This document shows, in pieces, positions 31,067-38,186 of a stretch of DNA of 41,237 bases (positions are counted from its first letter, which is position 1; every line of letters begins with the position of its first letter). A program made the translations under genes and the position numbers. Under the pieces are notes generated by a model. That model searched no databases. It was not told the origin of the DNA and was given only the letters and a program-made list of their open reading frames with translations. Location of the stretch: the NCBI GenBank assembly GCA_945865395.1, contig CAMBDT010000002.1, forward strand, positions 1-41,237, given 5' to 3'. This stretch comes from Acidimicrobium ferrooxidans DSM 10331. GTDB lineage: Bacteria > Actinomycetota > Acidimicrobiia > Acidimicrobiales > Ilumatobacteraceae.

Positions 31067-32281
31067 ATGAGCACAGCAACCACAACTTCAAGTTCAACAA
31101 CACGGTCAAATCGCACGATGACTCTGGCTCAGCGTCGTCGCGCTGTTCTTGATCGTGGCGGTTTGCTATCTTCGCGTCGTATTGCGCAGAAACCTGCCAA
31201 CACGACGTTCTTCATGATTTTTTTCACGGTGCTCACACTGGTGACATTTGGTCTCGTAATGGTGATGTCGTCGTCTTCGATCGTCGCATTGAATCGTGGC
31301 ATGTCGCCCTGGACGATGTTCTTCAAGCAGTTGATGTGGGCATCAGTGGGCGGATTAGGGATGGCATTTTTCTTTCGCTTTCCATATTCGTTGATGCGTC
31401 AGTTTGTGTTTCCTGTTTTGATTTTTGCTTTCGGTTTGATGTTCTTGCCATTCGCACCGAACATTGGCGTCAGTACCAACGGCGCCAGAGCATGGGTGGC
31501 GATCGGGCCCATTGGTTTTCAGCCATCTGAATTTTTGAAGCTGGCACTCTTGGTCTATTGCGCAAACTTGCTGGGGCGACGTCAAAAAGAAGTCACTGAT
31601 GTCAATCGCACAACACGACCAGTTGTTGTTGCTTGGCTGGCATCTGTATTTCTGTGCCTGATACAGCGCGACCTCGGCGGCGCCATTGTTATGACTTGCA
31701 TCGTTTTGGCAGTGATGTGCATGGCGGGTATTCCGATGCGAATTGTTAACGCAATTGCAGGTTCGAGCGTTGTGGCAGCATTATTTTTTACGCTAATCAC
31801 ATCGTCGCGTCGAAATCGTTGGACAGCATTCTTGAACTTGGATGAGACCAAAGGTTCGTTTGGTTATCAAGTTTGGCAATCGATACTTTCAATTTCGAAC
31901 GGTGGCATTTCTGGTGTCGGTGTCGGCGCAGGCACAGGCAAGTGGGGCTATGTACCACTAGCGCACAGCGACTTTATTTTTTCGACGATCGCCGAAGAGA
32001 TGGGATTAATTGGTGTAACAGTTGTGATTGGGGGTTTCTTGACGCTCGTATTATTCGGTCTGCGTGCAGCATTGGGCGCCGAAGAAAGATTCGGCGCACT
32101 TCTCGCAGGCGGCGTCACGATGTGGTTCGCAATCCAAGCAATCATCAACATCGGTGGAGTCACCGGTTCGATGCCCGTGACTGGTTTAACACTGCCGCTT
32201 ATTTCATACGGCGGAAGCTCGCTATTGGTGTGCATGTCGGCAGCAGGGCTGTTGATGAACGTCGCGCGTAATATGAAGTGA
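31067..32281 (+). CDS. ftsW: FtsW lipid II polymerase / SEDS protein
   Basis: NGARAWVAIGPIGFQPSEFLKLALLVYCANLL, HSDFIFSTIAEEMGLIG, LTLPLISYGGSSLLV; multi-TM. Confidence 0.95.
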   Translation: MSTATTTSSSTTRSNRTMTLAQRRRAVLDRGGLLSSRRIAQKPANTTFFMIFFTVLTLVTFGLVMVMSSSSIVALNRGMSPWTMFFKQLMWASVGGLGMAFFFRFPYSLMRQFVFPVLIFAFGLMFLPFAPNIGVSTNGARAWVAIGPIGFQPSEFLKLALLVYCANLLGRRQKEVTDVNRTTRPVVVAWLASVFLCLIQRDLGGAIVMTCIVLAVMCMAGIPMRIVNAIAGSSVVAALFFTLITSSRRNRWTAFLNLDETKGSFGYQVWQSILSISNGGISGVGVGAGTGKWGYVPLAHSDFIFSTIAEEMGLIGVTVVIGGFLTLVLFGLRAALGAEERFGALLAGGVTMWFAIQAIINIGGVTGSMPVTGLTLPLISYGGSSLLVCMSAAGLLMNVARNMK

Positions 32282-32304: not shown

Positions 32305-34842
32305 TTGACCGTCACCAGCCACCCTGTCTTTGCCGTCATCACCGGCGGGGGAACCAGTGGCCATGTAATTCCAGCACTCGCAATCGCAGAGTTGTTGCAA
32401 GATTCAGGCGTCAATAAAGATCAACTTCATTTCGTCGGATCAACCAACGGCATCGAAACAACTCTCGTGCCAAGTGCGGGCATTTCGCTCTCGTTGCTGA
32501 CCGTACAAGGTTTTCGCCGCGGCTTGTCGGCTAGCGCCATTCAACATAACATTCGAACTCTTAAAGTCTTGCAAAACGCCACGCAACACGCCGAGAAATT
32601 ATTGGCGGCTTTGCAACCAGCGGTCGTCATTTCGGTCGGCGGTTATGTGAGCGTGCCGGCAACTCGCGCGGCAAAGAAATTGAACATACCCGTGGTGACT
32701 GTTTCTTATGACCGACAACCAGGTTTGGCGACAAGACTTCAAGCGCGAAGTGCTGCGGCGAGCGCAGTGGCGTATCTGCCGTCGCAATTGAAAAATGCGA
32801 CACTCACAGGTGCGCCGGTACGCCGAGTGTTACGAAATCTGGATGTGACTTCTACGCGAGCCCAGGCACGAGAGCGGTTGTCGGTGCCGAGCGATCGAAA
32901 AGTCATTTGCATCACGGGTGGGTCACTGGGTTCGGCAAAACTTAATGTCATCGCACGAACGATCGTCGAAAGTAATCAACAACGCAGCGACCTTTGCATA
33001 GTTCATTTGACCGGCCAGCGATATTCAAACGATGACCTGCCGGTGATCAATGACGATGCAAAAATCATTTACAAACGACTTGAGTCAACCGTGGCGATGC
33101 AAGATGTCTATAGCGCTTCTGATCTGGTCGTTGCTCGTGCGGGTGCGAGCACGGTAGCCGAAGTATCGACAATTGGCGTCGCCAGCGTTCTCGTACCATG
33201 GCGTGGCGCGGCCGAAGATCATCAAACCGCAAATGCAAATTGGCTCGGTGACTGTGGTGGCGCAATTGTTGTCGATGAAAAGACAATTACTAACGCACAA
33301 ATGGCGAACCAAGTTATTGCTTTGGTTGATGATCAAACCAAACTTGAACTTCTTGCGTCAGCCGCGCGCAAGGCAGGCACACAACATCGCGAAACGACAC
33401 TCGCTAGTTTGATCTTGAGTGTTGTATCTCAGAAAAATGCGGCTCTGGATCTTCGAAAACCGCAACGAATACATATCGTGGGCGTTGGCGGTCCTGGTAT
33501 GTCGGCAGTTGCAACGGTGCTGGCCGAGATGGGACATCAAGTTTCAGGCAGTGACATTCGGCAGTCAGATTTGATTGCACGACTCACAGATATTGGCGTC
33601 AAGATCAATATCGGGCACGACCCAGAAGCTGTTCGAGGTTGCGACTTTGTTACTGGTTCGCCCGCGATCGCAGCGCCAAACATCGAATATCAGCAAGCAA
33701 GAAAACTGGGCATTCAAGTTTTGTCGCGTGCCGAGACGCTGGCCGGCATTTGTCAATGCGCCACAAGTATTGGTGTCGCGGGCACGCACGGCAAGACAAC
33801 AACTTCGTCGATTTTGACAACTATTTTGCTTGGCGCTGACAAGAAACCGAGTTATCTGATTGGTGGAGATGTCGTTTCGTTTAAGCGTGGTGCAGCATGG
33901 ACCAATGGCGACTTATTCGTTGTCGAAGCCGACGAAAGTGACGGCACACATTCACAGTTGCCACTCGCTGCGACTATCTTGACGAATGTCGATATCGACC
34001 ATCTAGATCACTTCAAGACTCAAGCAGCAATCGAACAGAGTTTTTTCGACTACGTCGGCAATATCTCCGGACCGCGTGTTCTGTGTCTAGACGACCCTGT
34101 CTGCGCATCAATCGCCCATGCACACAAGTCGATCACTTATTCGGTCAATGATCGTTCATCGGCTGATTTTGTCGCTTCCGAAATTCATTTCAAAGATGCG
34201 GGTGCATCATTTAAGGTATTTCGAAATCTCAATAACCAAAGAGTTGAACTTGGTCATGTCAATTTGCCACTACGCGGCATGCACAATGTCAGCAATGCGC
34301 TCGGCGCAATCGCTATGTCGATGCAGTTTGGTGTTCGGTTTGATCAAGCCGCTGAAGCATTAAGCAGATTCGGTGGGGTGGCTCGGCGTTTCGATGTCCA
34401 AGGTGTCGATAGTGGCGCAACATTCGTCGATGACTATGCCCACCTGCCCAATGAGATTGCCGCGGTGCTTTCGGGTGTGCGAGACGAGTCAGACAAATGG
34501 TCTCGTGTCGTCGCGGTGTTTCAGCCCAACAGGTTTAATCGCATGTCTGAGATTTCACATCTATATGCCGACGCGTTTGTCGCCGCCGATCTAGTCGTAG
34601 TGACTGACATCTATTCTTCTGGCACGCAACCAATCGCCGGCGTGACAGGTCAACTCGTTGTCGACGCAGTTCTTAAATCGCACCCCGAATCTCATGTCGT
34701 GTATCAACCAAACCGCGCATATCTCGTAGAGTTCTTGGCAGATGAGATTAAATCTGGCGACCTATGCATCTCGATGGGTTGTGGCGACATCGCCACATTG
34801 CCCCGTGAAGTGATTTCGCTTCGACAAGGTAAATCAAGTTGA
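32305..34842 (+). CDS. murG-murC: MurG-MurC fusion: lipid II synthase (residues ~1-380) + UDP-N-acetylmuramate--L-alanine ligase (residues ~385-845)
   Basis: MurG: ITGGGTSGHVIPALAIAELL, VSVGGYVSVPA, TGGSLGSAKLN, ARAGASTVAEVSTIGVASVLVPWRGAAEDHQTANA. MurC: RIHIVGVGGPGMSAVATVLAEMGHQVSGSD, GVAGTHGKTTTSSILTTIL, VEADESDGTH, LTNVDIDHLDHF, FVDDYAHLPNEI. Single open 845-codon frame. Confidence 0.95.
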   Translation: MTVTSHPVFAVITGGGTSGHVIPALAIAELLQDSGVNKDQLHFVGSTNGIETTLVPSAGISLSLLTVQGFRRGLSASAIQHNIRTLKVLQNATQHAEKLLAALQPAVVISVGGYVSVPATRAAKKLNIPVVTVSYDRQPGLATRLQARSAAASAVAYLPSQLKNATLTGAPVRRVLRNLDVTSTRAQARERLSVPSDRKVICITGGSLGSAKLNVIARTIVESNQQRSDLCIVHLTGQRYSNDDLPVINDDAKIIYKRLESTVAMQDVYSASDLVVARAGASTVAEVSTIGVASVLVPWRGAAEDHQTANANWLGDCGGAIVVDEKTITNAQMANQVIALVDDQTKLELLASAARKAGTQHRETTLASLILSVVSQKNAALDLRKPQRIHIVGVGGPGMSAVATVLAEMGHQVSGSDIRQSDLIARLTDIGVKINIGHDPEAVRGCDFVTGSPAIAAPNIEYQQARKLGIQVLSRAETLAGICQCATSIGVAGTHGKTTTSSILTTILLGADKKPSYLIGGDVVSFKRGAAWTNGDLFVVEADESDGTHSQLPLAATILTNVDIDHLDHFKTQAAIEQSFFDYVGNISGPRVLCLDDPVCASIAHAHKSITYSVNDRSSADFVASEIHFKDAGASFKVFRNLNNQRVELGHVNLPLRGMHNVSNALGAIAMSMQFGVRFDQAAEALSRFGGVARRFDVQGVDSGATFVDDYAHLPNEIAAVLSGVRDESDKWSRVVAVFQPNRFNRMSEISHLYADAFVAADLVVVTDIYSSGTQPIAGVTGQLVVDAVLKSHPESHVVYQPNRAYLVEFLADEIKSGDLCISMGCGDIATLPREVISLRQGKSS

Positions 34843-36944
34843 TTTCAGAATTTGCACATCCAAGCGAAAAAGATTTGAACCGGTTCGCAGCTTTGCTGGG
34901 CGATCGCATCACTAGAGACGAACCAATCGGCCCATATACGACGTATCGGGTTGGCGGGTCTGCATCGCTGTTCATGCGCGCAATGAGTGTCGACGATTTA
35001 CACGCCGCATCGCGAGCATTGGCAAAAGTAAGAATCCCAGTCTTAATGCTCGGTCGTGGCAGCAATATGTTGATCAGCAAGAGCGGCTTTCGCGGTTTGG
35101 CGATCGCATTAGGACCATTCGCCGAACAAATTAGTCTTCCGAGCACTTCTCAAGATCCAATTCTTTTGGTGGGCGCAATGGCGTCGTTACCAGTTGTAGC
35201 CCGTCAAAGTGTCGCTGCCGGTCTGCGCGGTTTCGAATGGGCAGTTGGCGTACCGGGTTCGATTGGTGGGGCCGTTCGAATGAACGCCGGTGGTCACGGC
35301 TCGGACATGATTGCGTCTTTGTTGAGTGTGCGACTGTTTCATCTTGACAGAGGTATTGAAGCCAATGTTTCGGCCGCAAATTTGGGTTTGCGATTTCGTG
35401 GTTCTGATTTGAACGATCAACACATTGTTGTTGCGGCGACTTTACGACTTTCATGGGGCGACAAAGTCGAAGGTGAATCGCGATTAGCCGAAATTGTTAA
35501 ATGGCGGCGCGAAAATCAGCCGGGTGGTCAAAATGCTGGTTCGGTTTTCGTCAACCCAGTTTCGGGTGCCGCGTCGGCCGGTGCCTTAATTGATGGTCTC
35601 GGTTTGCGCGGTTATCGCATCGGTACTGCTGTGGTTTCTGAAAAGCACGCGAATTTCATTCAAGCCGACGAAGACGGTGATGCCGACGATGTCGTCGAGT
35701 TGATGACATTCATTCGCCAACGCGTGACTGAGTCGCACGGCATAGATCTTCGCAGCGAAATTCGCTTGGTTGGTTTTTCGTCGGCTGTTTCTGACGAAGC
35801 AGGTGCGCTTCATCAAACTGAGACCTCGCGCAACACGCAACTTGAATCTGCATTTGGCTCGGCAAACAACACCGACTTGTCGATTCCGGTGCCATCTTTT
35901 GCCGAACAACTTTCAGATGAAGTCTTGGCAGAACTTAAAGATGCCTTTGAAGGTGACGCAACACCCACTGGCAATTTGCGAGTCGTGCAGCCGAATGACT
36001 TTGCAAAATCGCCTGACAAAATAAATGATGATTCTTCCGCAACGACGAACACTTCGCTAACACTCAAAACAAATAATGGCCGAATTGTCATCGTCGATGA
36101 AGATCTTCGATTACCTGTCGACTCTGACCATCCGATTGATGAGTTGACAAGTTCTGTCAATGTTGCTCCAACTTCTGACCCGAGCAACATCATTCGTGAT
36201 TCACGCCTCGAAGATCGACGCAAGGATGTCATCAGAAGTCTTGCGTCAAACCGCCGTAGGTTGTTGGTCGCCGCTGGTTCTGTGATTGGCGCGGTGGCTT
36301 TGGTGCTTATCGTTCTAGCGTCACCGATAATCGGCGTGCGCAAGATCGAAATTGAAGGCGCTAAATATGTCAGTGCTGACTTGTTGATCGCCGTAGAAAA
36401 GTCTTTGGACGGTAAATCAATTTTGACTGTCAATACGCGAGCCGCCGAGCGGCGACTTGAAGGAGACCCGTGGGTTGAGTCTGTGCGGATCAAATCATTC
36501 TTTCCGTCAAGACTTGTCATCGAGATTGTCGAGCGCAAGCCTGTGGCTTTCTATATCGGTGTAGATAACCGTTCGCGAGTCGTTGATCCGCAAGGTCGTG
36601 TTTTGGCTGTTGAAACTGGTCAACCAACTCAGTATCTGCAGATCACAGGGGTTGGGCCAAACCTCGCGCCGGGCGCAAGCGCCGGCACGGTATATAAAGC
36701 CGCGGCTCAACTCGCAGCGGGGTTGCCAGATGAATTGAGTGAGCGAGTCTTGAATGTCGGTGTGGGTGGCCCAAATCAATTAGTCATGACCCTGCGCACG
36801 GGTACCCTGATCAATTTTGGACCTCCGGTTGATCTGCAGAATAAGTTGATTTCGTTGCTCGTGTTGTTGCGGCGACAAGATGCGAAGCAAATAATCTCAA
36901 TCGACTTAACCGACCCACAAACACCAACTGTAAAGTCGAAGTAG
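34839..36944 (+). CDS. murB-ftsQ: MurB-FtsQ fusion: UDP-N-acetylenolpyruvoylglucosamine reductase (~1-315) + ~155-aa linker + TM + POTRA/FtsQ domain
   Basis: MurB: YTTYRVGGSASLFM, LMLGRGSNMLISKSGFRG, GLRGFEWAVGVPGSIGGAVRMNAGGHGSD, WRRENQPGGQNAGSVFVNP, LIDGLGLRGYRIGTAVVSEKHANFI. FtsQ: TM RRLLVAAGSVIGAVALVLIVLASPIIGVRKIEIEGAKYVSADLL, POTRA, FPSRLVIEIVERKPVAFYI, ISIDLTDPQTPTVK. Starts at TTG overlapping the murC TGA (TTGA). Confidence 0.93.
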   Translation: MISEFAHPSEKDLNRFAALLGDRITRDEPIGPYTTYRVGGSASLFMRAMSVDDLHAASRALAKVRIPVLMLGRGSNMLISKSGFRGLAIALGPFAEQISLPSTSQDPILLVGAMASLPVVARQSVAAGLRGFEWAVGVPGSIGGAVRMNAGGHGSDMIASLLSVRLFHLDRGIEANVSAANLGLRFRGSDLNDQHIVVAATLRLSWGDKVEGESRLAEIVKWRRENQPGGQNAGSVFVNPVSGAASAGALIDGLGLRGYRIGTAVVSEKHANFIQADEDGDADDVVELMTFIRQRVTESHGIDLRSEIRLVGFSSAVSDEAGALHQTETSRNTQLESAFGSANNTDLSIPVPSFAEQLSDEVLAELKDAFEGDATPTGNLRVVQPNDFAKSPDKINDDSSATTNTSLTLKTNNGRIVIVDEDLRLPVDSDHPIDELTSSVNVAPTSDPSNIIRDSRLEDRRKDVIRSLASNRRRLLVAAGSVIGAVALVLIVLASPIIGVRKIEIEGAKYVSADLLIAVEKSLDGKSILTVNTRAAERRLEGDPWVESVRIKSFFPSRLVIEIVERKPVAFYIGVDNRSRVVDPQGRVLAVETGQPTQYLQITGVGPNLAPGASAGTVYKAAAQLAAGLPDELSERVLNVGVGGPNQLVMTLRTGTLINFGPPVDLQNKLISLLVLLRRQDAKQIISIDLTDPQTPTVKSK

Positions 36945-37067: not shown

Positions 37068-38186
37068 ATGGTCGGTCAACCACAAAATTATTTGGCAGTT
37101 ATCAAAGTCATCGGTGTCGGCGGTGGCGGTGTGAACGCCATCAATCGCATGATGGAGTCAGGCATGCGTGGCGTCGAATTCGTGGCGATCAATACCGACG
37201 CACAAGCACTTTTGTTGAGCGATGCGAGTGTCAAGATTGACATCGGTCGTGAATTAACCCGTGGTCTCGGCGCTGGTGCCGACCCAGAAGTTGGTCGCGA
37301 AGCCGCAGAACAACATCGCGATGAAATTCAAGAAGTAGTCGCAGGCGCCGACATGGTTTTCATTACTGCTGGTGAAGGTGGTGGCACAGGCACAGGTGCC
37401 GCACCGGTGATTGCTGAGATCGCCAAGGCCGAAGGTGCTTTGACGGTCGCGATTGTTACGCGACCGTTTGCATTTGAGGGTCGTCGTCGTTCGGTGCAGG
37501 CCGATGCAGGCATTGCTGCGCTTAAAGAAAAAGTAGACACGCTTGTCGTTATTCCAAACGAGCGATTGCTGGCAATTTCAACCGACAAGACGAGCATGCT
37601 GGATGCTTTCAAAAAAGCTGACGAAGTTTTGGTCCAAGGCGTTTCAGGCATCACAGGGTTGATCACCACACCGGGTTTGATTAATACAGACTTTGCTGAC
37701 GTCAAAACCGTGTTGGCAAATGCCGGCACTGCATTGATGGGTACTGGTGCTGCAAGCGGTGACAATCGAGCAGTCTTGGCTGCAAACGCCGCGATCAATT
37801 CGCCTTTGCTCGAGGCTTCGCTCGAGGGTGCACGAGGCATTGTCGTGAACATCACCGGACCATCAGATGTGGGCTTGTTTGAAGTGACCAACGCGATGGA
37901 GATCGTGCGAGGTGTGGCACATCAAGATGCAAACATCATTCATGGTTTGGTTATTGATGACGATGTCAACGATGAAGTTCGCGTGACGGTAGTAGCAGCA
38001 GGTTTCGAACGCTGGGACAGTGCGGCGCAACGCACCGCCACCCGCGGTGATGGTCGAAGCACAGCAACATCTGGCACGGTTCGCCCCGACTCGAAGGGCG
38101 GACGGTTGAAAGATTTGTTCGGCGGCACATCTGATCCACTAAGTGGTGCCGATGATGACGACGATCTTCCTTCATTTCTGAAATAA
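37068..38186 (+). CDS. ftsZ: Cell division protein FtsZ
   Basis: [57 protein letters not shown]-terminal peptide [11 protein letters not shown]. Confidence 0.98.

Follow-up and report, generated by a model that had tools for sequence, protein, structure and literature searches.

The murG-murC open reading frame lies in a dcw cluster

The window, the whole stretch of 41,237 nucleotides analyzed here, derives from a small-genome freshwater actinobacterial genus (Acidimicrobiia, Ilumatobacteraceae) and contains a dcw cluster, in which ftsI, murE, mraY, murD and ftsW are located upstream of a long open reading frame (ORF) and a murB-ftsQ ORF and ftsZ downstream. The long ORF (32305..34842, forward strand) starts with TTG, ends with the stop codon at 34840-34842 and encodes 845 amino acids without internal stops. 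Of the flanking genes identified by Pfam and NCBIfam, ftsW (31067..32281, forward strand) is a separate gene, and ftsZ (37068..38186, forward strand) lies at the downstream end of the cluster. Most members of the genus share the position of this TTG start, which is not preceded by a clear Shine-Dalgarno sequence.

A preliminary description had proposed that this ORF is a fusion of MurG and MurC, and Pfam and NCBIfam indeed place both enzymes in one frame. The MurG part (residues 1-370, 32305..33414, forward strand) contains Glyco_transf_28 (residues 11-152) and Glyco_tran_28_C (residues 200-354), and the MurC part (residues 388-845, 33466..34839, forward strand) contains the three Mur ligase domains, Mur_ligase (residues 388-483), Mur_ligase_M (residues 491-671) and Mur_ligase_C (residues 694-827). 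The combination of glycosyltransferase 28 and Mur ligase domains that had been suggested as a check is thus present in a single protein, with all five matches above the Pfam cut-off. The NCBIfam murC model (TIGR01082) matches residues 388-836 over model positions 1-448 of 449, at 409.8 bits against a cut-off of 335.1. The murG model (TIGR01133) matches residues 11-370 at full length (model positions 9-353 of 353); its score of 231.1 bits is slightly under the cut-off of 250.25, and it is still the best family. The two NCBIfam matches are separated by a linker some 17 residues long (371-387, 33415..33465, forward strand), as short as the preliminary description had claimed and free of ATG and GTG codons. 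Solved structures in the PDB match the MurG part or the MurC part separately, and none of these matches spans both.

It is also evident that no second copy of either gene was detected in the source genome. A search of this metagenome-assembled genome (1.29 Mb, 88% complete, 135 contigs) returned one MurG match and one MurC above the family cut-off, namely the fused ORF. No stand-alone murG or murC was detected, with the limit that the assemblies of the genus are all incomplete metagenomes, in which an extra copy could be missed.

Both parts retain most motifs of their families

The MurG part retains the motifs GGGTSGH, GGSLGS, RAGAST.AE and H.Q..NA, and, of the active site, the G-loop with H20, R278-E286, and H306, Q307 and N310 are kept. 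Its HEQN motif, however, reads SYDR (residues 131-136, 32695-32712). SYDR or near variants are found in nearly all examined Ilumatobacteraceae loci, fused and unfused alike, and HEQN-like residues persist in a number of further families in the order and the phylum. The idea that SYDR resulted from the fusion was rejected because unfused relatives in the family carry it too. In four loci from outside the family (L056, L106, L153 and L156), yet other residues are found at the HEQN site (INVDA, VNVDS, VELDA and INIDA). In the MurC part, the P-loop GTHGKTT and the motifs EADESD, NVDIDH, HNV.NA and RRF are present, and two motifs are variant, DDYAHLP for DDYGHHP and QPNR for QPHR.

An AlphaFold2 model of the fusion, built from 22 fused relatives, has a mean pLDDT of 86.6, with lower values at residues 371-380, and a pTM of 0.58. 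Its best matches by fold comparison in the PDB are MurC and MurG structures. With a pTM of only 0.58, no fixed mutual orientation of the two parts is predicted, so that the model depicts two confidently folded parts placed without confidence relative to each other. As judged from the sequence, the ORF very probably encodes one bifunctional protein, in which the MurG glycosyltransferase and the MurC ligase would both be active on either side of a short linker. The points against this reading are the MurG score below the NCBIfam cut-off, the SYDR motif, the two variant MurC motifs and the chance of a missed extra copy in the incomplete assemblies.

The reading frame is continuous across the junction

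All 28 examined genomes of the genus have a frame that is open across the MurG-MurC junction. In one of them the end of MurG contains a stretch of N (G001), and in another the frame is broken later, within MurC (G018). Three genomes flagged "1 TGA" (G019, G023 and G024) were considered as cases of split murG and murC, and this was rejected, as a single stop-to-stop frame covers both enzymes in each. An artificial merger of two separate genes by sequencing or assembly might be suspected in a source that is a metagenome assembly of 135 contigs. However, the same open junction is found in genomes from different projects, including Baikal-G1, LBMAG acIV epi.bin5 and UBA8923, and on the strength of all 28 genomes we reject a frameshift or assembly artefact, the probability of which we consider negligible.

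The divergence of the junction points in the same direction. Measured between two conserved motifs, HR in MurG and RIH in MurC, the junction segment has a length of 24, 25, 26, 30 or 43 codons and is always in frame, so several length changes have preserved the frame. When close pairs are pooled, pN/pS amounts to 0.32 for this segment, compared with 0.23 for the preceding 60 codons and 0.13 for the following 60, and the differences between close relatives in the junction fall mostly at third positions. These results show that the segment evolves as translated sequence, in a frame under purifying selection.

A continuous ORF might still yield MurC alone as well, if translation also began inside it (at codon 369, 371 or 392) or if proteases cleaved the linker, which looks flexible in the predicted model. 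The distribution of start codons agrees with the preliminary description: near the junction, TTG is read in frame at codons 369 and 371, and GTG does not appear in frame before codon 392, which falls within the IVGVGG motif. The two TTGs would offer a start for a separate MurC in the source ORF. Yet neither is preceded by a Shine-Dalgarno-like site, the candidate starts are not conserved in the genus, and initiation at codon 392 would cut into the nucleotide-binding strand of MurC. In one locus (L021), the 30 codons preceding the MurC motif contain no ATG, GTG or TTG at all. Across the genus, we found neither a conserved start codon ahead of MurC nor a convincing Shine-Dalgarno sequence near the junction. 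We consider it improbable that MurC is also made alone. The frame kept in 28 genomes, the coding-like divergence and the lack of a MurC start that is conserved or preceded by a Shine-Dalgarno sequence together make a sequencing frameshift or independent translation of MurC appear very unlikely.

The fusion is conserved in the genus and recurs in the phylum

We then mapped the fusion on a phylogeny computed with FastTree from the concatenated MurG and MurC sequences of 119 loci, which is built from the proteins in question and is not an independent species tree. The fused proteins of the genus form one clade (support 1.0), and murG and murC are separate in the clade that is sister to it (the pair of clades has support 0.992), so that the phylogenetic mapping proposed in the preliminary description yields one supported fused clade with an unfused sister. 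The metagenome assemblies behind five loci (L038, L043, L046, L048 and L109) are titled Bifidobacterium breve or Ferrithrix thermotolerans; their dcw clusters clearly belong to this freshwater family, and the titles look wrong. The most likely origin of the fusion is in the ancestor of the genus, in which the adjacent genes murG and murC would have lost their boundary via loss of the stop codon and/or a small indel.

Outside the genus, separate murG and murC are the rule among the Actinomycetota genomes covered by our survey. The preliminary description had named such homologous loci, together with a frameshift at this junction, as grounds against a fusion; the former are indeed common, whereas no sign of a frameshift was found at this locus. 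MurG-MurC frames also occur in part of g18 (G041, G108 and G140), in part of g41 (G119; L051-L053), and in G185, G384, G312 and G716. In g18 and g41, two related genera, these frames also include MurB, so that MurG, MurC and MurB share one stop-to-stop frame of 1164-1301 amino acids (L051, L052, L053, L111, L118 and L123). Other members of g18 have MurC fused with MurB, with one or two in-frame stops between MurG and this fusion. Among 299 sampled genomes of the order, matches that span both enzymes without interruption are rare outside the family (G384, G312 and G1009, the last known from the match alone).

The fusion could also be real but neutral, in which case a stop codon was lost in a compact operon without harm and without any spatial or metabolic coupling. 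Neighboring operon genes often lie in one frame, and murG and murC are repeatedly adjacent in the same frame in the phylum with a single stop between them, so that one mutation could fuse them. The sporadic recurrence of such fusions, the poorly conserved linker sequence, the small genomes of the genus (assembled size 1.0-2.2 Mb) and the fact that MurG and MurC are not consecutive enzymes also favor neutrality. On the other hand, no reversal is visible in the genus even though protein identity among its fused members goes down to about 61%, and MurB is added to MurG-MurC in two related genera. We regard neutrality as a serious rival, with slightly less than an even chance of being correct; it accepts a real fusion and disputes only the importance of the tether, so that the probabilities of neutrality and of a bifunctional protein are not exclusive.

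MurB and FtsQ are fused in the same operon

The retention of a second fusion in this operon also speaks against neutrality. The MurB-FtsQ ORF (34839..36944, forward strand, 701 amino acids) overlaps the murG-murC ORF by 4 bases and consists of MurB (about residues 20-313, with MurB_C at residues 215-311), a linker of about 140 residues, a hydrophobic segment and an FtsQ POTRA domain (POTRA_1, residues 500-566). No ATG and no start preceded by a Shine-Dalgarno sequence was found in the linker of about 140 amino acids in the source ORF. The fusion of MurB and FtsQ is shared by the sister clade and, wherever the retrieved DNA includes both parts, by the whole genus. Of the 49 loci in which MurB and FtsQ are fused, 41 carry a motif of the type IVIVDEDL...APTS in the long linker, and the motif is absent from all 80 loci with separate genes, in counts that include duplicates from the same genome. 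In this ORF, a precursor enzyme of the cytoplasm is thus attached to a membrane protein of the divisome at its cytoplasmic tail. The MurB-FtsQ fusion may merit more attention than the MurG-MurC fusion.

Comparison with known fusions

A fusion of murG and murC as a kind is already known. The Figure 3 legend of a 2016 review lists one in Cellulomonas gilvus, and the same review lists an ftsW/murG fusion in Kribbella flavida (PMC4929429); a 2019 paper likewise mentions that MurG/MurC fusions exist and that the two steps are not consecutive (PMC6420597). As far as the description in the review goes, the same two adjacent dcw genes are fused in C. gilvus, which is also an actinobacterium but of a distant lineage of the phylum, whereas the fusion described here is fixed across a genus and recurrent.

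Other fusions share some of these features. MurB/C of Verrucomicrobium spinosum has been characterized and complements murB and murC mutants of Escherichia coli (PMC4803751). Like MurG-MurC, it joins MurC to another precursor enzyme and is conserved across a lineage, but its partner, MurB, catalyzes the consecutive step, and the triple fusions reported here join MurG to these two enzymes. Bordetella pertussis has a MurE-MurF fusion with MurG as a scaffold (PMC6420597), which is also a bifunctional Mur polypeptide and favors a role of MurG in keeping Mur ligases assembled; in contrast to our case, MurE and MurF are consecutive and MurG binds their fusion non-covalently. In Chlamydia trachomatis, according to a citation in PMC4803751, MurC is fused to Ddl. 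This fusion resembles MurG-MurC in that the partner of MurC is not the enzyme of the next step, and differs in that this partner is Ddl, whose activity depends on the fusion. What appears to be new here is the extent. In the open-licence literature we found no earlier report of genus-wide conservation and recurrence of the MurG-MurC fusion, nor any report of MurG-MurC-MurB fusions or of fusions such as the adjoining MurB-FtsQ.

Possible function of the tether

MurB makes UDP-MurNAc, which MurC, the first Mur ligase, consumes in the cytoplasm by adding L-Ala. MurG is a peripheral membrane enzyme that adds GlcNAc to lipid I and is the last glycosyltransferase before lipid II. The roles given to MurC and MurG in the preliminary description are thus correct. 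Because MurD, MurE, MurF and MraY act between MurC and MurG, direct substrate channeling is not expected, and each domain most likely performs its own usual reaction independently.

If the fusion does more, the tether might carry MurC to the membrane or to a MurG scaffold, and one polypeptide would fix the expression of MurG and MurC at 1:1. We judge the chances that the fusion has a tethering function to be about even, and a putative membrane tethering of MurC via MurG is plausible. With MurG a peripheral membrane protein, both ends of the pathway might be placed at the membrane, as had been proposed. A wider suggestion, which we regard as doubtful, is that MurG-MurC and MurB-FtsQ, by tethering MurC and MurB to membrane-associated proteins of lipid II synthesis and cell division, together covalently localize early cytoplasmic precursor synthesis at the membrane or the divisome.

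It is a long-standing question whether the cytoplasmic Mur enzymes form a membrane-bound complex scaffolded by MurG. The matter bears on Mur inhibitors, which, in the argument put forward in PMC6420597 and PMC4929429, are often active in vitro and not in cells. A lineage with a covalent association of MurG and MurC beside MurB-FtsQ would offer natural constructs with which the question of a Mur complex can be tested.
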